NCBI RefSeq assembly: GCF_001983955.1
Contig: NZ_CP019562.1
Span: 620,001-684,000 of the forward strand
Direction: 5' to 3'
Source of the DNA: Streptococcus oralis
GTDB lineage: Bacteria > Bacillota > Bacilli > Lactobacillales > Streptococcaceae
DNA: 64,000 nt
The translations under genes and the position numbers were made by a program. Below the pieces are notes generated by a model. It was not told the origin of the DNA. It did not search any database and saw nothing but the letters and a program-made list of their open reading frames with translations. This document shows, piece after piece, positions 5,867 through 55,490 of this stretch (its first letter is position 1; each line of letters opens with the position of its first letter).

Positions 5867-8053
5867 ATGATGAAAGCTACATTCAAAAATGTCTTGTCTT
5901 TCGAATTTTGGCAAAAATTCGGTAAGGCTTTAATGGTGGTTATCGCCGTTATGCCAGCGGCGGGATTGATGATCTCAATCGGTAAATCAATCGTGATGAT
6001 CGACCCAAACCTTGCTCCTCTAGTGATTACAGGTGGAATCCTTGAGCAAATTGGTTGGGGGGTTATCGGTAACCTTCATATCTTGTTTGCCCTTGCTATT
6101 GGGGGAAGCTGGGCAAAAGAACGTGCAGGTGGTGCATTTGCAGCTGGACTTGCCTTTATCTTGATTAACCGTATCACAGGTGCTATCTTCGGTGTTACAG
6201 GTGATATGTTGAAAAACCCTGAAGCAATGGTTACTACCTTCTTTGGTGGTTCAATCAAGGTTGCTGACTACTTTATCAGCGTTCTTGAGGCACCAGCTCT
6301 TAACATGGGGGTTTTTGTAGGGATTATCTCTGGTTTTGTTGGGGCAACAGCTTATAACAAATACTACAACTTCCGTAAACTTCCTGATGCCCTTTCATTC
6401 TTCAATGGTAAACGTTTCGTACCATTCGTCGTTATTCTTCGTTCAGCTATTGCTGCAATTCTACTTGCTGCCTTTTGGCCAGTAGTTCAAACAGGTATCA
6501 ACAACTTCGGTATTTGGATTGCCAACTCACAAGAAACTGCTCCAGTCCTTGCACCATTCTTGTATGGTACTTTGGAACGTTTGCTCTTGCCATTCGGTCT
6601 TCACCACATGTTGACAATCCCAATGAACTATACAGCTCTTGGTGGAACATACGAAGTGTTAACTGGTGCAGCAAAAGGAACACAAGTATTTGGTCAAGAT
6701 CCCCTTTGGCTTGCATGGGTAACTGACCTTGTTAACCTTAAAGGTTCAAATGCTGACCAATACCAACACCTTCTTACAACAGTCACTCCAGCTCGTTTCA
6801 AAGTTGGACAAATGATCGGTTCATTTGGTATCTTGATGGGTGTCATCGTTGCTATCTACCGCAATGTTGATGCTGACAAGAAACACCAATACAAGGGTAT
6901 GATGATTGCGACAGCCCTTGCAACATTCTTGACAGGGGTTACTGAACCTATCGAGTATATGTTCATGTTCATCGCAACACCGCTTTACCTTGTTTATTCA
7001 GTAGTTCAAGGTGCTGCCTTTGCTATGGCAGATATTGTTCACCTTCGTGTCCACTCATTCGGTTCAATTGAATTCTTGACTCGTACACCATTGGCAATTA
7101 ATGCTGGTATTGGTATGGATATCGTTAACTTTATCTGGGTAACTGTTCTCTTTGCGGTTATCATGTACTTCATTGCCAACTTCATGATCAAGAAATTCAA
7201 CTACGCAACTCCAGGACGTAACGGAAACTACGAAACAGCTGAAGGAGCATCAGAAGAAGCAGCTTCTGGAACTCCAAAAGTTGCAGCAGCTTCTCAAGCC
7301 GTAAATATCATTAACCTTCTTGGTGGTCGTGCAAATATCGTAGATGTGGATGCATGTATGACTCGTCTTCGTGTAACTGTTAAAGACGCAGATCGCGTTG
7401 GTACTGAGGAACAATGGAAAGCAGAAGGAGCTATGGGGCTTGTCATGAAAGGACAAGGTGTCCAAGCTATCTACGGACCAAAAGCTGATGTATTGAAATC
7501 TGATATCCAAGATATCCTTGACTCAGGTGAAGTAATTCCTGAAACTCTTCCAAGTCAAATGACAGAAACTCAACAAAATACTGTCCATTTCAAAGGTGTA
7601 ACTGAGGAAGTTTACTCAGTAGCTGACGGTCAAGTTGTTGCCTTGGAACAAGTGGAAGATCCAGTTTTTGCTCAAAAAATGATGGGTGATGGATTTGCAG
7701 TAGAGCCAGCAAATGGCAACATTGTATCTCCAGTTACTGGTACTGTATCAAGTATCTTCCCAACAAAACACGCTCTTGGTCTTGTCACTGACTCAGGTCT
7801 TGAAGTGCTTGTTCATATTGGTTTGGATACAGTAAGTCTTGAAGGAAAACCATTTACTGTTCATGTCTCTGAAGGACAAAAAGTGGTTGCTGGTGATCTT
7901 CTTGTCACAGCTGACTTGGATGCTATTCGAGAAGCAGGACGCAAAACATCAACAGTGGTTGTCTTCACAAATGGTGATGTCCTCAAATCAGTTAAATTAG
8001 AACAAACAGGTTCTCTTGCAGCTAAAACAGCAGTTGCTAAAGTAGAATTGTAA
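5867..8053 (+). CDS. ptsG: Glucose-type PTS transporter, fused EIICBA
   Basis: 728-residue membrane protein that takes up and phosphorylates a hexose, with phosphate passing from HPr through EIIA to EIIB. Order: EIIC (about 1-440, about ten membrane segments, with the GITEP-type motif LTGVTEPIEYMF), EIIB (about 475-555) with its phosphocysteine at Cys497 (DACMTRLRV), and EIIA (about 590-720) with the histidine pair His635 (TKHALG) and phospho-His650 (LVHIGLDTV). All catalytic residues are intact. Two ATGs stand in tandem; the first is used here. It is monocistronic, with its own promoter and a cre-like palindrome. Glucose or glucosamine is the likely substrate by family; exact specificity cannot be read from sequence. 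Confidence 0.9.
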   Translation: MMKATFKNVLSFEFWQKFGKALMVVIAVMPAAGLMISIGKSIVMIDPNLAPLVITGGILEQIGWGVIGNLHILFALAIGGSWAKERAGGAFAAGLAFILINRITGAIFGVTGDMLKNPEAMVTTFFGGSIKVADYFISVLEAPALNMGVFVGIISGFVGATAYNKYYNFRKLPDALSFFNGKRFVPFVVILRSAIAAILLAAFWPVVQTGINNFGIWIANSQETAPVLAPFLYGTLERLLLPFGLHHMLTIPMNYTALGGTYEVLTGAAKGTQVFGQDPLWLAWVTDLVNLKGSNADQYQHLLTTVTPARFKVGQMIGSFGILMGVIVAIYRNVDADKKHQYKGMMIATALATFLTGVTEPIEYMFMFIATPLYLVYSVVQGAAFAMADIVHLRVHSFGSIEFLTRTPLAINAGIGMDIVNFIWVTVLFAVIMYFIANFMIKKFNYATPGRNGNYETAEGASEEAASGTPKVAAASQAVNIINLLGGRANIVDVDACMTRLRVTVKDADRVGTEEQWKAEGAMGLVMKGQGVQAIYGPKADVLKSDIQDILDSGEVIPETLPSQMTETQQNTVHFKGVTEEVYSVADGQVVALEQVEDPVFAQKMMGDGFAVEPANGNIVSPVTGTVSSIFPTKHALGLVTDSGLEVLVHIGLDTVSLEGKPFTVHVSEGQKVVAGDLLVTADLDAIREAGRKTSTVVVFTNGDVLKSVKLEQTGSLAAKTAVAKVEL

Positions 8054-8062
8054 TATACTTGG

Positions 8063-8090
8063 GGTTGGAAGCTGTTTTCCAACCTCTTGT
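8063..8090 (+). terminator. Hairpin between the PTS gene and the EEP-family gene
   Basis: GGTTGGAA ... TTCCAACC (arms 8063-8070 and 8077-8084) followed by TCTTGTTTT. The T-run is broken, so it may be a leaky terminator that lets some transcripts read into the next gene 20 bp downstream. Confidence 0.55.
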
Positions 8091-8104
8091 TTTAGGAGAA
8101 AAGC

Positions 8105-8920
8105 ATGAAATTTCTAACACTCAATACCCACAGTTGGATGGAGAAGGAAGCAGAGGAAAAATTCCAAATCTTACTCCAAGACATTCTTGATAAGGATTAT
8201 GATTTGATTTGTTTCCAAGAAATCAATCAAGAAATGACTTCGCCTGAGGGAGAGGTTAACAATCACTATCAAGCTTTACCATCAGCAGAACCCATTCATC
8301 AGGATCACTATGTCCGACTTCTGGTTGAAAAATTGGCTGAGAAAGGGAAAAACTACTACTGGACTTGGGCTTACAATCATATTGGCTATGACCGCTACCA
8401 TGAAGGCGTAGCTATCTTATCTAAAACACCTATTAAGGCGCGTGAGATTTTAGTATCAGATGTAGATGATCCAACGGACTACCATACTCGTCGCGTTGCC
8501 TTGGCTGAGACAGAGGTTGAAGGTAAGGAACTTGCTCTTGCAAGCGTTCATCTCTCTTGGTGGGATAAAGGTTTCCAAGAAGAATGGGCACGATTTGAGG
8601 CTGTACTAAAAGAGTTGAACAAACCTCTGATTTTAGCAGGTGATTTTAATAATCCAGCTGGTCAGGAAGGCTATCAAGCGATTTTAGCTAGCCCATTAGG
8701 ATTACAAGACGCGTTTGAAGTTGCGAAAGAAAGAAGTGGTAGCTACACCGTTCCACCAGAAATTGATGGTTGGAAAGGCAATACCGAGCCATTACGAATC
8801 GACTACGTCTTTACGACCAAAGAGTTAGAAGTAGAGAGTTTGCAAGTAGTTTTTGATGGCCAAAATAGTCCACAAGTCAGTGATCATTATGGTTTGAATG
8901 CTGTATTGACCTGGAAATAA
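8105..8920 (+). CDS. Endonuclease/exonuclease/phosphatase (EEP) family protein
   Basis: 271-residue cytoplasmic protein of the EEP fold, which includes phosphodiesterases, nucleases and sphingomyelinases that cleave phosphoester bonds with divalent metal. Motifs in order: FLTLNTHSW, CFQEIN (metal-binding Glu), ASVHLSWW, LAGDFNNPA (catalytic Asp and Asn), RIDYVF and the final SDHYGLNAV (catalytic His). There is no signal peptide. It starts 51 bp after the PTS gene and is flanked by two GTTGGAA hairpins. The substrate is not recognisable; the genomic link to sugar uptake hints at, but does not show, a sugar-phosphate or nucleotide substrate. Confidence 0.85.
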   Translation: MKFLTLNTHSWMEKEAEEKFQILLQDILDKDYDLICFQEINQEMTSPEGEVNNHYQALPSAEPIHQDHYVRLLVEKLAEKGKNYYWTWAYNHIGYDRYHEGVAILSKTPIKAREILVSDVDDPTDYHTRRVALAETEVEGKELALASVHLSWWDKGFQEEWARFEAVLKELNKPLILAGDFNNPAGQEGYQAILASPLGLQDAFEVAKERSGSYTVPPEIDGWKGNTEPLRIDYVFTTKELEVESLQVVFDGQNSPQVSDHYGLNAVLTWK

Positions 8921-8928
8921 TGAAAGAG

Positions 8929-8956
8929 GTTGGAACCAGAGAGTTCCAACTTTTTA
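8929..8956 (+). terminator. Terminator after the EEP-family gene
   Basis: GTTGGAAC ... GTTCCAAC hairpin (8929-8936 with 8943-8950) followed by five T. Confidence 0.85.
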
Positions 8957-9019
8957 ATCTATTCGAATCTTTACTACAGGACTGAGACTCAAATGGGGCT
9001 ACTGCAATAGGACAAAATA

Positions 9020-9028
9020 TGGTATAAT
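9020..9028 (+). promoter_or_regulatory. Extended -10 promoter of the DEAD-box helicase gene
   Basis: TGGTATAAT, with no convincing -35. It lies 24 bp before the ATG. Confidence 0.6.
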
Positions 9029-9052
9029 TGAAAGGATAGAATCGAGGATAGT

Positions 9053-10396
9053 ATGTCATTTAAGAAATTTCAATTTAAAAATTATATAGTAGAAGCCTTG
9101 GAGGAGTTGAAGTTTACGACTCCTACCGAGGTTCAGGAAAAGTTGATTCCTATTGTCTTGGCAGGTCGTGACTTGGTGGGCGAGTCAAAAACAGGTTCAG
9201 GAAAGACTCATACTTTCTTATTACCCATTTTCCAGCAATTAGATGAAACTAGCGATAGTGTGCAAGCGGTCATTACTGCACCAAGTCGTGAGTTGGCCAC
9301 TCAAATATACCAAGCAGCTCGTCAGATTGCAGTTCACTCAGATGTCGAAGTTCGTGTGGTTAATTATGTAGGTGGTACGGATAAGGCGCGTCAGATTGAA
9401 AAACTTGCCAGCAACCAACCACATATCGTTATCGGAACGCCAGGTCGCATCTATGACTTGGTCAAGTCTGGTGATTTGGCTATTCACAAGGCCAAGACCT
9501 TTGTAATTGATGAAGCAGATATGACCTTGGATATGGGATTCTTGGAAACCGTTGATAAGATTGCAGGGAGCCTTCCAAAAGACTTGCAATTCATGGTTTT
9601 TTCAGCGACGATTCCTCAAAAATTGCAACCATTCTTGAAGAAATACTTGTCAAATCCTGTCATGGAAAAAATCAAGACTAAAACAGTTATCTCAGCTACC
9701 ATTGATAACTGGTTGATTTCGACCAAGGGCCGCGACAAAAATGCTCAGATTTACCAGCTGACTCAGTTGATGCAGCCTTATTTAGCAATGATTTTTGTTA
9801 ACACAAAAACGCGTGCTGATGAGTTACATGCCTACTTGACTGCTCAAGGATTGAAGGTAGCTAAGATTCATGGAGACATTGCTCCTCGTGAACGCAAACG
9901 GATCATGAATCAGGTGAAAAATCTGGATTTTGAGTACATTGTCGCAACGGACTTGGCAGCGCGTGGAATTGATATTGAAGGGGTCAGCCATGTTATCAAT
10001 GATGCCATTCCGCAAGACTTGTCTTTCTTTGTTCACCGTGTTGGACGAACTGGGCGCAACGGACTGCCTGGTACAGCGATTACCCTTTACCAGCCAAGTG
10101 ATGACTCGGATATCCGTGAGTTAGAAAAATTAGGGATCAAGTTTACTCCTAAGATGGTCAAAGACGGAGAGTTTCAAGATACCTATGACCGTGATCGTCG
10201 TGCCAATCGTGAAAAGAAGCAGGATAAGCTTGATATTGAAATGATTGGCTTGGTCAAAAAGAAAAAGAAAAAGGTCAAACCAGGCTATAAGAAGAAGATT
10301 CAATGGGCGGTGGATGAAAAACGCCGCAAAACCAAGCGTGCTGAAAATCGCGCACGTGGCCGTGCAGAGCGAAAAGCCAAACGCCAAACATTTTAA
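9053..10396 (+). CDS. DEAD-box RNA helicase
   Basis: 447-residue ATP-dependent RNA helicase. Motifs: Q-motif region FTTPTEVQEKLIP, Walker A TGSGKT, PSRELATQ, TPGR, DEAD box (VIDEADMTLD), SAT, RGID and HRVGRTGR. The last 90 residues are very basic (a KKKKKVKPGYKKK stretch and several RGRAERKAKR-like segments) and would bind RNA. Size and tail suggest a CshB-like enzyme in cold adaptation, ribosome assembly or mRNA decay, but the exact orthologue is not certain. Own promoter and a strong terminator make it monocistronic. Confidence 0.9.
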   Translation: MSFKKFQFKNYIVEALEELKFTTPTEVQEKLIPIVLAGRDLVGESKTGSGKTHTFLLPIFQQLDETSDSVQAVITAPSRELATQIYQAARQIAVHSDVEVRVVNYVGGTDKARQIEKLASNQPHIVIGTPGRIYDLVKSGDLAIHKAKTFVIDEADMTLDMGFLETVDKIAGSLPKDLQFMVFSATIPQKLQPFLKKYLSNPVMEKIKTKTVISATIDNWLISTKGRDKNAQIYQLTQLMQPYLAMIFVNTKTRADELHAYLTAQGLKVAKIHGDIAPRERKRIMNQVKNLDFEYIVATDLAARGIDIEGVSHVINDAIPQDLSFFVHRVGRTGRNGLPGTAITLYQPSDDSDIRELEKLGIKFTPKMVKDGEFQDTYDRDRRANREKKQDKLDIEMIGLVKKKKKKVKPGYKKKIQWAVDEKRRKTKRAENRARGRAERKAKRQTF

Positions 10397-52339: not shown

Positions 52340-52370
52340 AAGAAGGAGCCATTAGGCTCCTTTTGATTTC
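52340..52370 (-). terminator. Terminator of the apbE operon
   Basis: Minus strand: AAGGAGCC TAAT GGCTCCTT CTTTTTTG. Confidence 0.88.
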
Positions 52371-53612
52371 TTAGTTGCTTGCGCCAGAAGTAGCGTCAGC
52401 GCCTACATGACCTCCGCCGTCAGGAGTATCAGAAGCGCCAGAAGTAGCATCGGCGTCTCCATGACCTCCAGCTGCAGGAGCAAATGGTCCGCTACCACCT
52501 ACCAAACGTTGACCAGTTTCTTGTAAGTACCAGTCAAGCCATGGTTGGAAGTTAAAGACGATTTCATTGATTCCAGCGTATGATCCATCAGGATAGTACA
52601 TTGCTTGGTAGTTGTGGGTGTTGATGACACCTGCAGGAGAACCTGGAACGATCGTGCGGACGTATTCTTGGTTTCCGTTGCGAAGTGTTCCGATAACCCA
52701 CTCTACATTCTTCATCCGAGCTGGTGGAAGAGAACCATGAACAGTCGACATACGGCTACCTGATTGAGGTGGTACGCGTTTAGCAAACATGGTGTCTGGA
52801 TCTTGGTGAGCGTTGTTGTAGTAGAGGAATTGGTTGTTGTCGTCAGCGTATGTCAATTCAAATGGCATAGCTTTCAAGAACATATCAATTTGGTTAACTG
52901 TCAGGATACCGTGGTCCAATTTGACATAGGTATCACCAGAAACAGCACCAGTGATTGCTGCAACTTTTTCTACCCATTCTGGATCATCAGGGTCAACTTC
53001 TGTAATGGTTGTAGCAATTGGTTTTCCACAATCCAAGTCTTCTGGTTCGATTGGTTTTGGTTTTTTCAATTTCGAAACGACTCCTACGTATTTAACAAAG
53101 TTATCTAAGCAAGTTTCAAGGAATTTAACAGTGCCTTCGTTGGTGATGTTTCCATTGTTATCAAAAGCTTCTTTGGCTTTACCAAGAAGGAACTCATTTC
53201 CTGGAAGTGTGTAGGCATTGACACCTGGAGCGTCAAGGATTTTACGAAGGTGAACCTGGGCACGTGATGTTCCTTGGTCATAGTATGATGCACCCACAAT
53301 CATAACAGGCTTGTTTTCAAATGGATGAACTTCGTATGAAAGCCATTCAAGTACAGATTTGAGCGAAGCTGAGATAGTGTGGTTGTGCTCAGGAGTGGCG
53401 ATAATGACACCATCAGCACGTGTAATCTTGTTATACAAGAAACGCAATTGGAAGCTTTCGTCCCATTTTTCGTCTTGGTTAAACATTGGAACTTCGTCGA
53501 TTTCAAGGACTTCTAATTCAAATTTGAATTTGAAATTGCGACGGATAAATTCCAAGAGTTTGCGGTTATATGATTGATCGTAGTTTGATCCAACAAGTCC
53601 AACAAATTTCAT
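52371..53612 (-). CDS. NADPH-dependent flavin reductase with PAS domain and two ApbE-type flavinylation motifs
   Basis: 413-residue cytosolic oxidoreductase. Residues 1-175 are an NADPH-dependent FMN reductase domain (GLVGSNYDQSYNRKLL, IIATPEHNHTISASLKSVLEWLSY). Residues about 215-370 resemble a PAS_10-type domain (MPFELTYADDNNQFLYYN ... YPDGSYAGINEIVF). The tail is a Gly/Ala/Asp-rich stretch with two copies of an 18-residue repeat, each holding DATSGAS (388-394 and 406-412). This fits Dxx[ST]GA[ST], the site where ApbE attaches FMN to Ser or Thr. apbE lies in the same operon. No signal peptide. Covalent flavinylation is inference; domain calls are from motifs. Confidence 0.85.
   Translation of the reverse strand: MKFVGLVGSNYDQSYNRKLLEFIRRNFKFKFELEVLEIDEVPMFNQDEKWDESFQLRFLYNKITRADGVIIATPEHNHTISASLKSVLEWLSYEVHPFENKPVMIVGASYYDQGTSRAQVHLRKILDAPGVNAYTLPGNEFLLGKAKEAFDNNGNITNEGTVKFLETCLDNFVKYVGVVSKLKKPKPIEPEDLDCGKPIATTITEVDPDDPEWVEKVAAITGAVSGDTYVKLDHGILTVNQIDMFLKAMPFELTYADDNNQFLYYNNAHQDPDTMFAKRVPPQSGSRMSTVHGSLPPARMKNVEWVIGTLRNGNQEYVRTIVPGSPAGVINTHNYQAMYYPDGSYAGINEIVFNFQPWLDWYLQETGQRLVGGSGPFAPAAGGHGDADATSGASDTPDGGGHVGADATSGASN
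52373..52470 (-). repeat. Direct repeat encoding the DATSGAS tails
   Basis: Two 54-bp in-frame units (18 codons) at the 3' end of the flavin reductase gene encode GGHGDADATSGAS and GGHVGADATSGAS separated by a DTPDG linker. Confidence 0.75.
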
Positions 53613-53629
53613 TCTTTCGGTCTCCTATC

Positions 53630-54235
53630 TTACAAATTTTCCCAGTCAAATTCTTCTGCATCTTTGCGAAGCAATTCTTGCGCATTGCGCAATTTCTCAG
53701 TAATTTTCACAAAGATACGGAAGTCATCAAAGATGGCATCCAATTTCTTGATGACATCAAGGTCAACCAAGTCACCACTTGGGTTAAATGCTTGAAGAGA
53801 GTGAGAAAGCAAGAATTCATCTGGTAGAACATTTGCCTTAATTTCAGGAGCGTTCAAGATTTGACGAAGTTGCAATTGCGCACGAGATGAACCAAGAGTT
53901 CCGTAAGAAGCACCAGTGATCATGATTGGTTTGTTCAAAAGTGGGTAGATACCGTAAGATAGCCAAGCAAGAGCGCTCATCAAAACTGCAGGGATTGAGT
54001 GGTCGTACTCAGGGGTGCCGATGATGACACCATCAGATGCTTCAATTTTAGCAGCAATTTCAAGAATTTCAGCAGGAAGAAGTTTATCTGCTGGTTTGTT
54101 GAAAACAGGAATGTCCTTGATTTCAACAAGTTCAATTTCAGCTTTATCCGCAAAGTGTTTTTGCATGTATTGGAGCAATTGGCGGTTTGTAGAACGTTTA
54201 GAGTTCGTTCCAACAATGGCAATAAGTTTTAGCAT
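53630..54235 (-). CDS. NADPH-dependent FMN reductase
   Basis: 201-residue flavodoxin-like reductase, clearly paralogous to the N-terminal domain of the next gene (compare GTPEYDHSIPAVLMSALAWLSYGIYPLLNKPIMITGAS there and here). It uses NADPH to reduce FMN or a quinone-type acceptor. It lacks a PAS domain and a DATSGAS tail. It lies 33 bp after apbE and 17 bp before the larger reductase on the minus strand, so the three are one operon. Confidence 0.9.
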   Translation of the reverse strand: MLKLIAIVGTNSKRSTNRQLLQYMQKHFADKAEIELVEIKDIPVFNKPADKLLPAEILEIAAKIEASDGVIIGTPEYDHSIPAVLMSALAWLSYGIYPLLNKPIMITGASYGTLGSSRAQLQLRQILNAPEIKANVLPDEFLLSHSLQAFNPSGDLVDLDVIKKLDAIFDDFRIFVKITEKLRNAQELLRKDAEEFDWENL

Positions 54236-54268
54236 GAGATTTCCTTTCTCTTTTTACATAATACAAAT

Positions 54269-55216
54269 TTAAAGGCCTGAAGAACATGTAAGGTTCCCCT
54301 CTTTGTCGATGAGAATGGCTTCGATACCATCTAAACCTTCGACTTGCCAGAGGATAGAAGCGCTACGTTCTCCGAATAGGCGGGTTGTCCAAATCTCACC
54401 ATCGACGGATTTATCTGAGATAATCGTTAGGCTAGCGAGCTCTGTTTCGACAGGGAATCCTGTCTCGCTATCAAAAATATGGTGGTAGTCTTTTCCATCT
54501 ACTGTCAGGTGGCGTTCATAGATACCTGAAGTGACAACGGATTTGTTAGAAGCTGGGATGGTTAGGAGATGATTGCCACGAGGATTTCGCGGATCTTGAA
54601 TCCCAATCTGCCAGGCTTTCCCTTCTTTGGCTTGGTTATTCCCGATGGTGAGGATATTTCCTCCGAGATTGATCAAGGCAGAGGTGACACCGTGTGTTTT
54701 CAAATACTGGGCAACCTTATCTGCACTATAGCCCTTGGCTAAACAACCTAAATCAAGCTTCATTCCTTTCTTCTCTAAAAATACAGTAGAGCTAGCGGGA
54801 TCTAACTTGATAAAATGCGGGTCAACTAGAGGCAAGACAGCTTCGATTTCGTTTAGCTCGGGGAGTCGAGCATCTGAAAAACCGATTCGCCAGGTTTGAA
54901 TCAAGGGGCCAATGCTGATATTTAGATGGCTAGATGGAGCTAGACTATGTTCTAACCCAAGAGCAATCAGTTCAAATAAGTCAGGATGGACCTTGACCGG
55001 AGCAATTCCAGCCTGGTGATTGATTTCCATCAATTCGGATTCTTGACTGTTGGCGTTGAAGCGGTACTCGAGCTCTCTGAGTAAATTAAAGGCTCCTTGA
55101 AGCAGGCAATCTACCTGTTCATCTACTAATGAAATAGTGATAGTTGTTCCCATTAGTCGTTCAGAACGTGAACGAAGAGGCAAGCTACCAACTCCTTTCT
55201 CTTTATAGGAAATCAT
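54269..55216 (-). CDS. apbE: ApbE, FAD:protein FMN transferase
   Basis: 315-residue flavinyl transferase that moves FMN from FAD to Thr or Ser in target proteins. Motifs: LMGTTITISL, MKLDLGCLAKGYSADKV, SALINLGGNI and the end region DGKDYHHIFDSETGFPVE. Unlike exported ApbE lipoproteins it has no signal peptide or lipobox, which points to cytosolic targets. The start MISYKEKGVGS is at 55216, with AAAGGAG-like sequence before it. First gene of the operon with two flavin reductases, divergent from nox. In older annotation it is called a thiamine biosynthesis protein, which is outdated. Confidence 0.92.
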   Translation of the reverse strand: MISYKEKGVGSLPLRSRSERLMGTTITISLVDEQVDCLLQGAFNLLRELEYRFNANSQESELMEINHQAGIAPVKVHPDLFELIALGLEHSLAPSSHLNISIGPLIQTWRIGFSDARLPELNEIEAVLPLVDPHFIKLDPASSTVFLEKKGMKLDLGCLAKGYSADKVAQYLKTHGVTSALINLGGNILTIGNNQAKEGKAWQIGIQDPRNPRGNHLLTIPASNKSVVTSGIYERHLTVDGKDYHHIFDSETGFPVETELASLTIISDKSVDGEIWTTRLFGERSASILWQVEGLDGIEAILIDKEGNLTCSSGL

Positions 55217-55273
55217 TCAATATAAGGTCGTTAAACAAAAATTGAACCCCTTACATTTTATTTCCATGTTTCT

Positions 55274-55302
55274 AGCATAACATAAAGTCAGCGTTTTCAC
55301 AA
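55274..55302 (-). promoter_or_regulatory. apbE operon promoter overlapping a cre site
   Basis: Minus strand: -35 TTGTGA (55302-55297), 17-bp spacer, extended -10 TGTTATGCT (hexamer 55279-55274). Minus-strand 55299-55286 reads TGAAAACGCTGACT, matching the cre consensus at 13 of 14 positions and overlapping the -35 and spacer, so CcpA should repress. Confidence 0.8.
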
Positions 55303-55330
55303 ATAAATTTTAACAAAAAGTCAAGAAATA

Positions 55331-55417
55331 TGCTCAGAATTAATATGAAAACGATAGAAAAATTAGATTTATCAATGTTAAGTGTATTTTTTTCTGAAAA
55401 AAAGAGAATTCTGAGCA
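55331..55417. other. Wide inverted repeat between the apbE and nox promoters
   Basis: TGCTCAGAATT (55331-55341) and AATTCTGAGCA (55407-55417), perfect 11-bp arms separated by 65 bp. Each arm lies just upstream of one of the divergent -35 boxes. A possible paired operator for an unknown regulator. The gap 55217-55490 holds no gene. Confidence 0.55.
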
Positions 55418-55423
55418 AATACC

Positions 55424-55452
55424 TTGTAAACGCTAACAGTAAATGGTATACT
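55424..55452 (+). promoter_or_regulatory. nox promoter overlapping a perfect cre site
   Basis: -35 TTGTAA at 55424-55429, 17-bp spacer, extended -10 TGGTATACT ending at 55452. TGTAAACGCTAACA at 55425-55438 matches the CcpA consensus TGWAARCGYTWNCW at all 14 positions and covers the -35, predicting catabolite repression. Confidence 0.85.
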
Positions 55453-55490
55453 AGAAAGGTAAATCAAAAATTAAAGGTAGGAATTTTTCT

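Follow-up and report, generated by a model that had tools for sequence, protein, structure and literature searches.

A Streptococcus oralis operon with a predicted flavinylated tail on an FMN_red and PAS_10 protein

In this study, we describe a three-gene operon in a stretch of 64,000 nucleotides of Streptococcus oralis DNA (contig NZ_CP019562.1, positions 620,001 to 684,000; hereafter the window, with position 1 as its first letter). The genes lie on the minus strand in the order apbE, a gene for an FMN_red protein of 201 amino acids (aa) and a gene for a 413-aa protein, with intergenic gaps of 33 and 17 bases. The 413-aa protein joins an FMN_red domain to a PAS_10 domain and a disordered tail. 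We consider it probable, while leaving real room for doubt, that this protein is a cytosolic flavoprotein that oxidises reduced nicotinamide adenine dinucleotide or its phosphate (NAD(P)H), carries ApbE-attached flavin mononucleotide (FMN) on its tail, forms an HcrA/HcrB-type pair with the 201-aa chain and delivers electrons via PAS_10.

In the mechanism that we propose, ApbE would attach FMN to Ser394 and Ser412 of the disordered tail in the cytosol, and NAD(P)H would, by homology, donate hydride to the FMN_red pair. Electrons would pass from the pair to the tethered FMNs, a step suggested by the experiments of others on Lactococcus proteins and by motif conservation, and these FMNs would then swing to the adjacent PAS_10, as gene fusion, gene fission and motif placement suggest. 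PAS_10 would thus be a docking and delivery site, acting as a redox relay to an acceptor or as a reader for one. We infer the covalent FMN on the window protein, as well as the heterodimer, the direction of electron flow and the docking on PAS.

The tail motifs and the ApbE of the operon

The features of the operon are as follows.

52371..53612, minus strand: 413-aa protein with FMN_red, PAS_10 and flavinylation-motif tail (open reading frame (ORF), Pfam, AlphaFold2)
53172..53612, minus strand: FMN_red (NAD(P)H-dependent FMN reductase) domain, residues 1-147 (Pfam)
52548..52889, minus strand: PAS_10 domain, residues 242-355 (Pfam; 2qkp by profile and Foldseek)
52374..52496, minus strand: disordered tail, residues 373-413 (AlphaFold2 confidence below 50)
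52431..52451, minus strand: flavinylation motif 1, DATSGAS, residues 388-394, predicted FMN at Ser394 (sequence, conservation)
52377..52397, minus strand: flavinylation motif 2, DATSGAS, residues 406-412, predicted FMN at Ser412 (sequence, conservation)
53630..54235, minus strand: second FMN_red, 201 aa, probable HcrA-like partner (Pfam, adjacency in relatives, tree)
54269..55216, minus strand: ApbE, flavin adenine dinucleotide (FAD):protein FMN transferase, 315 aa, no signal peptide seen (Pfam, 7esa, hydropathy)
54371..54409, minus strand: ApbE segment SVDGEIWTTRLFG, in which the presumed metal ligand is Glu (aligned operon-type ApbEs)

An earlier, sequence-only reading had placed two DATSGAS copies on the tail of an FMN_red/PAS protein encoded in one operon with apbE, and ORFs, Pfam and the sequence itself agree with it. 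The copies are spaced 18 residues apart. The earlier proposal of two FMN sites per chain suits the window protein, for which two motifs predict two sites, but not the family: single-PAS relatives carry one to four motifs, with the exceptions of L177, in which every motif form has Ala replacing Ser/Thr, and L194 (534 aa), which carries seven, while the multi-PAS FMN_red proteins L154, L172, L173 and L174 have six to nine motif-like sites per chain.

Conservation was followed in 80 named Streptococcus loci and, across the order, in 59 fused FMN_red and PAS proteins from 60 stretches that were hand-picked, mostly one or two per genus, among the matches listed with coordinates (25 genomes were searched again). 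The strict motif, Dxx[ST]GA[ST], is present in 45/59 and 79/80 of these proteins, and in 58/59 and 80/80 when Ser is permitted for Gly; the widest form occurs in all 59. A search for orthologues that keep apbE and lack the motif, which the sequence-only reading had proposed as a check, returned none, since 0/59 order-wide and 0/80 Streptococcus proteins lack the widest form. In the 55 order-wide proteins of 500 aa or less (four longer ones were excluded), the tails hold 145 motifs when Ser may stand in for Gly, whereas shuffled tails average 0.65 and never exceed 4, and the motif is absent within residues 1-360 of the same proteins. Two strict motifs never arose when the window tail was shuffled 20,000 times. 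Given that 59/59 relatives keep the widened form and shuffled tails almost never do, the motif in the fused-protein tails is not due to chance. The stretches between motifs differ among relatives in length and letters, whereas the motif itself is kept.

Two sets of 120 homologues were also read. In the first, three proteins have no motif after residue 350: P0013 and P0076 are short and carry it earlier, and P0028 has Ala or Ser variants only. In the second, the strict form is missing after residue 330 in 40, and two have no form at all, P0150 with Asn or His for Asp and P0216 being cut short. A genome search with a motif pattern gave seven matches, of which only that of the 413-aa gene sits in a long open frame; the pattern omits AGY serine codons and therefore detects one of the two motifs in this gene.

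The apbE product is a member of the FAD:protein FMN transferase family (Pfam ApbE domain, residues 22-301, 253.4 bits against a cut-off of 25.6, E 3.4e-75), and FMN transfer is predicted for it. It matches 7esa, presumably Listeria FmnB, with E 6.1e-77. In 58/58 aligned operon-type ApbEs, Glu replaces the usual Asp of the Asp-x-x-[ST]-Thr motif at the position that we take to be a metal ligand; the operon-type segments resemble GEIWTTRLFG, where 7esa has GDGLST, that is, Asp. The residue at this position is thus still acidic. By hydropathy alone, none of the three proteins has a strongly hydrophobic N terminus (15-residue maxima over the first 40 residues are 1.01 for ApbE, 0.40 for the second reductase and 0.01 for the 413-aa protein), in keeping with the earlier view that ApbE and the 413-aa reductase have no signal peptide.

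The genes also travel together. The second FMN_red gene adjoins the fused gene in 59/59 order-wide and 80/80 Streptococcus loci, and apbE lies within 3.5 kb of it in 52/59 and 79/80. In a sample of 395 genomes of the order, ApbE was present in 197/197 with a match to the PAS module and in 155/198 without one, an association among related genomes rather than an independent test; the 197 include matches to other PAS_10 proteins, G067 having only the DUF438/hemerythrin type. The window genome has a single ApbE and, even with the E threshold at 1, lacks an FMN_bind domain, so that the tailed protein is its only recognised ApbE substrate. This does not hold across the genus, because the relatives G129 and G328 have an FMN_bind protein. 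A phylum-wide search found 2/398 genomes positive, both in the genus of the window and one of them the window genome; members are, however, named in Virgibacillus, Amphibacillus, Oceanobacillus and Gracilibacillus, so that outside Lactobacillales the family is present but rare.

The reductase pair and the PAS_10 domain

The closest solved folds to the reductase half of the 413-aa protein are ChrR and FerB. PAS_10 passes its Pfam cut-off (75.2 bits against 22.1), and this half matches 2qkp both by profile (E 1.2e-31) and by Foldseek fold agreement. VIA-align rows span mostly residues 1-184 and so say little about PAS. An AlphaFold2 model built from a 72-sequence alignment has a mean predicted local distance difference test score (pLDDT) of 83.5 and a predicted template modelling score (pTM) of 0.56; pLDDT falls below 50 over residues 373-413, which bears out the flexible tail of the earlier proposal. 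In the same alignment His333, Tyr335, Asn349 and Glu350 are invariant.

In an unrooted tree built from 47 FMN_red domains and displayed with midpoint rooting, the two chains of the operon fall in different clades. That of the 413-aa protein pairs with the N-terminal domain of proteins of 803-808 aa (support 99/96), and that of the 201-aa protein with the FMN_red proteins of 202-212 aa that precede them (99/90). One 803-808-aa protein, scanned by Pfam, has FMN_red, FMN_bind and FAD_binding_2, presumably the HcrB-type architecture, and it is on this basis that we call these look-alikes Hcr-like. HcrA and HcrB of Lactiplantibacillus plantarum form a heterodimer in which HcrB requires NADH and FMN (PMC10295242). 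The window operon likewise has an adjacent FMN_red pair, and in the tree A joins with A and B with B of the Hcr look-alikes L294, L295 and L287 of the window's family; the comparison was made with these look-alikes. The 201-aa chain and the N-terminal domain of the 413-aa protein are therefore most likely an HcrA/HcrB-type pair, a grouping for which we found no published description. Unlike HcrB-like chains, in which FMN_bind and FAD_binding_2 follow, the window protein continues into PAS_10 and the motif tail; Pfam finds neither of the former domains in it, and for this reason we do not file it as an HcrAB member. We infer that the A/B pair serves as an old front end for NAD(P)H, with an FMN_bind/FAD reductase attached in some proteins and a PAS_10 with a motif tail in others. 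Two Hcr-like FMN_red parts (G145:C23:40945-41520 and G152:C4:38546-39108) look broken, with an internal TGA or split frames.

The tree also bears on where the electrons go. The sequence-only reading had named the second reductase as a possible acceptor of the tail flavins, which is unlikely given that it groups with HcrA-like partners. Electron shuttling is still the likeliest use of the tail, but PAS, a domain that the earlier reading left without a role, is a better candidate for its acceptor side.

PAS_10 occurs with the motif in other settings. In L154 and L172-L174, three PAS modules (the third partial in L154) have motifs, with Ser allowed for Gly, in every linker. PAS ORFs without FMN_red carry the motif in 11/13 distinct cases (L149, the second ORF of L158, L192, L196, L197, L198, L199, L200, L201, L203, L206, L208 and the second PAS of L210, with L201 a 70-residue fragment), a count that omits two DUF438/hemerythrin-type ORFs and six split PAS genes. 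Nine apparent PAS_10 lipoproteins, P0249-P0257, their lipobox judged by eye, each have at least one motif, and so do fusions of FMN_bind with PAS_10 (L149, P0241-P0244, P0246 and P0247). The L149 protein (7998-9200) itself looks like a lipoprotein; it has FMN_bind with DQISGAT, then a linker with DADSGAS, PAS_10 and a tail that ends the series with DADSSAS. P0241 is near-identical to it (97%), and P0245, which is cut at the N terminus, carries the name Dolosigranulum pigrum. In L212 (7935-9870) and L216 (8087-9734), a PAS-only motif-tail gene precedes genes for a DUF3290 and a YetF (DUF421) protein, assigned by Pfam in L212 and by look in L216.

In 6/11 Lactococcus-like loci a separate PAS_10 gene of 158-165 aa stands beside a tailed FMN_red, so that partners fused elsewhere are split there, the pattern expected for functional partners. 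The DUF438/hemerythrin-type ORFs (L155 second ORF and L204) share the PAS_10 family and fold with the window protein, as does 2qkp, the C-terminal domain of SMU_1151c, but these ORFs lack the flavinylation motif; we take both ORFs and SMU_1151c to be DUF438 proteins. It may be, although we stop short of calling it probable, that lactic acid bacteria and their relatives use a general redox module made up of PAS_10 and at least one flexible arm flavinylated by ApbE, with PAS docking the tethered FMN. Such a module would appear in cytosolic reductase pairs, in triples with linker motifs, in lipoproteins and in FMN_bind fusions, as one PAS-based carrier serving both sides of the membrane. We found no published description of PAS_10 with flavinylation motifs recurring in several contexts.

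Competing explanations and published systems

ApbE flavinylation is mostly treated as extracytosolic redox work (PMC11334425, PMC8238504), with the cytoplasmic ApbE that serves a soluble fumarate reductase in Klebsiella pneumoniae as a described cytosolic case (PMC12052999). The window operon resembles the latter in having a cytosolic ApbE for a cytosolic flavoprotein, yet the window protein has no FAD_binding_2 or FMN_bind. Also described are FMN_red proteins, mostly of Firmicutes, with one or two motifs in an extended C-terminal region and apbE beside them (Huang et al. 2024, mSystems, PMC11334425); those of Lactococcus lactis and L. taiwanensis were flavinylated on co-expression in E. coli, and their Ala site variants were not. 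The core idea is therefore already known. The 413-aa protein shares with them the FMN_red domain, the unstructured C-terminal extension with Dxx[ST]GA[ST] and the neighbouring apbE, but differs in the PAS_10 that separates its tail from FMN_red and in the additional FMN_red gene beside it. The word PAS is absent from the text of that paper. In our tree, five tailed FMN_red domains read from Lactococcus-like genomes, which presumably include Lactococcus itself, form a third, separate clade (100/99).

The sequence-only reading knew of no described streptococcal system of this form. Among the open-licence papers listed, judged by titles and the starts of abstracts, we found no paper on this streptococcal operon or on a flavinylated PAS protein; the tailed FMN_red beside apbE, however, had been flavinylated in its Lactococcus form. 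We take SP_1470 to SP_1472 to be the pneumococcal counterparts. SP_1470 is named once in PMC11559097 and ApbE once in PMC8965153. In the window-type system an apparently dedicated ApbE, encoded in an operon free of export signals, accompanies a tail whose number of motifs differs from species to species. Docking of the tail FMN on PAS, if it occurs, would be a new location for covalent flavin and would supply a role for a PAS family across much of Lactobacillales, and it would tie window-type proteins to the HcrAB reductases, which let fermenting bacteria use other electron acceptors.

Several results weigh against the proposed mechanism. No result here supports flavin binding by PAS_10, and a PAS-only AlphaFold2 model (17 sequences, pLDDT 51) was too poor and was discarded. 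In 5/11 Lactococcus-like loci (L278, which lies near a contig end, L283, L284, L285 and L292) a tailed FMN_red and apbE occur in a stretch that has no PAS gene; PAS is thus not required by the arm in every case. None of the six split PAS genes has a motif, and when they are included the motif is found in 11/19 PAS ORFs without FMN_red; among the unsplit ORFs, the double-PAS L200 is motif-free and L192 has only Gly-Pro-Ser endings. The PAS-module query contained the tail and could favour motif-bearing matches, and apbE is beyond 3.5 kb in 7/59 loci, although each such genome has two ApbE genes. Finally, HcrA is inactive alone, HcrB is the minimum requirement and the part of HcrA in electron transfer is unsettled (PMC10295242); the second FMN_red may therefore only stabilise its partner.

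A different function for the same flavins was proposed for the Lactococcus proteins, in which the tail site would secure flavin at the FMN_red flavin site (PMC11334425). Applied here, the tail FMNs would merely hold the active-site flavin of their own or the partner's domain, the protein would be an ordinary NAD(P)H:quinone, azo or chromate-type reductase, and PAS would be an unrelated regulatory part. The kinship of the fold with ChrR and FerB and the tailed FMN_red loci that have no PAS gene fit this explanation, which we regard as unlikely but deserving of serious attention. Two or more motifs per chain are more than one active site needs, and motifs also lie between the PAS domains of multi-PAS proteins and on PAS proteins without FMN_red. 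Both the variable number of motifs and the abundance of Gly, Ala, Ser, Asp and His in the linker suit an arm more than a fixed site.

Sensing is a common role of PAS domains, and the tethered FMN might instead report the NAD(P)H state, with PAS changing conformation and signalling to a partner. The operon is divergent from a gene for an H2O-forming NADH oxidase (NF046103; here nox) in 74/80 named loci, as such a redox sensor might have it. Yet Pfam finds no output domain fused to the window protein, we noticed none among the relatives that were read, and apparent surface lipoprotein versions fit cytosolic signalling poorly; we consider a sensor improbable. It is least credible, and in our judgement very improbable, that the tail is an unflavinylated repetitive linker and that apbE acts on another substrate. 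The streptococci G051, G067 and G121 (L231-L233) do keep a similar-type ApbE while lacking both FMN_bind and the fused protein, so other uses of ApbE may be possible. The conservation of the motif, the shared operon, the absence of FMN_bind from the window genome and the published flavinylation of related proteins all speak for a flavinylated tail. We retain, as our favoured explanation, tethered FMNs that carry electrons from the reductase pair to PAS_10.

Sequences flanking the operon

The remaining features lie on either side of the three genes.

55217..55490, strand not assigned: intergenic region from apbE to divergent nox (near-cre content; weak evidence)
55285-55300 (minus) and 55424-55439 (plus): near-cre (catabolite-responsive element) sequences, one mismatch each against the cre consensus
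52343..52362, minus strand: terminator-like stem-loop past the operon end (stem-loop scan)

The block TTGTGAAAACG before apbE appears conserved and cre-like, and one near-cre sequence lies on each side. The window holds 28 near-cre matches where 20.7 are expected, so that only their conservation in alignments, judged by eye, speaks for these sequences, and near-cre regulation of the apbE/nox region is a weak candidate. Neither nox nor apbE occurs in a paper on CcpA (PMC3198803). Of the Rex half-sites looked for between apbE and nox, TTGTGA was found and TCACAA was not. At the other end of the operon, the stem-loop is one of six in the region, where 2.8 are expected, and just downstream an IS200-like Y1 transposase gene (PF01797, 51686-52186) is oriented toward the operon end.

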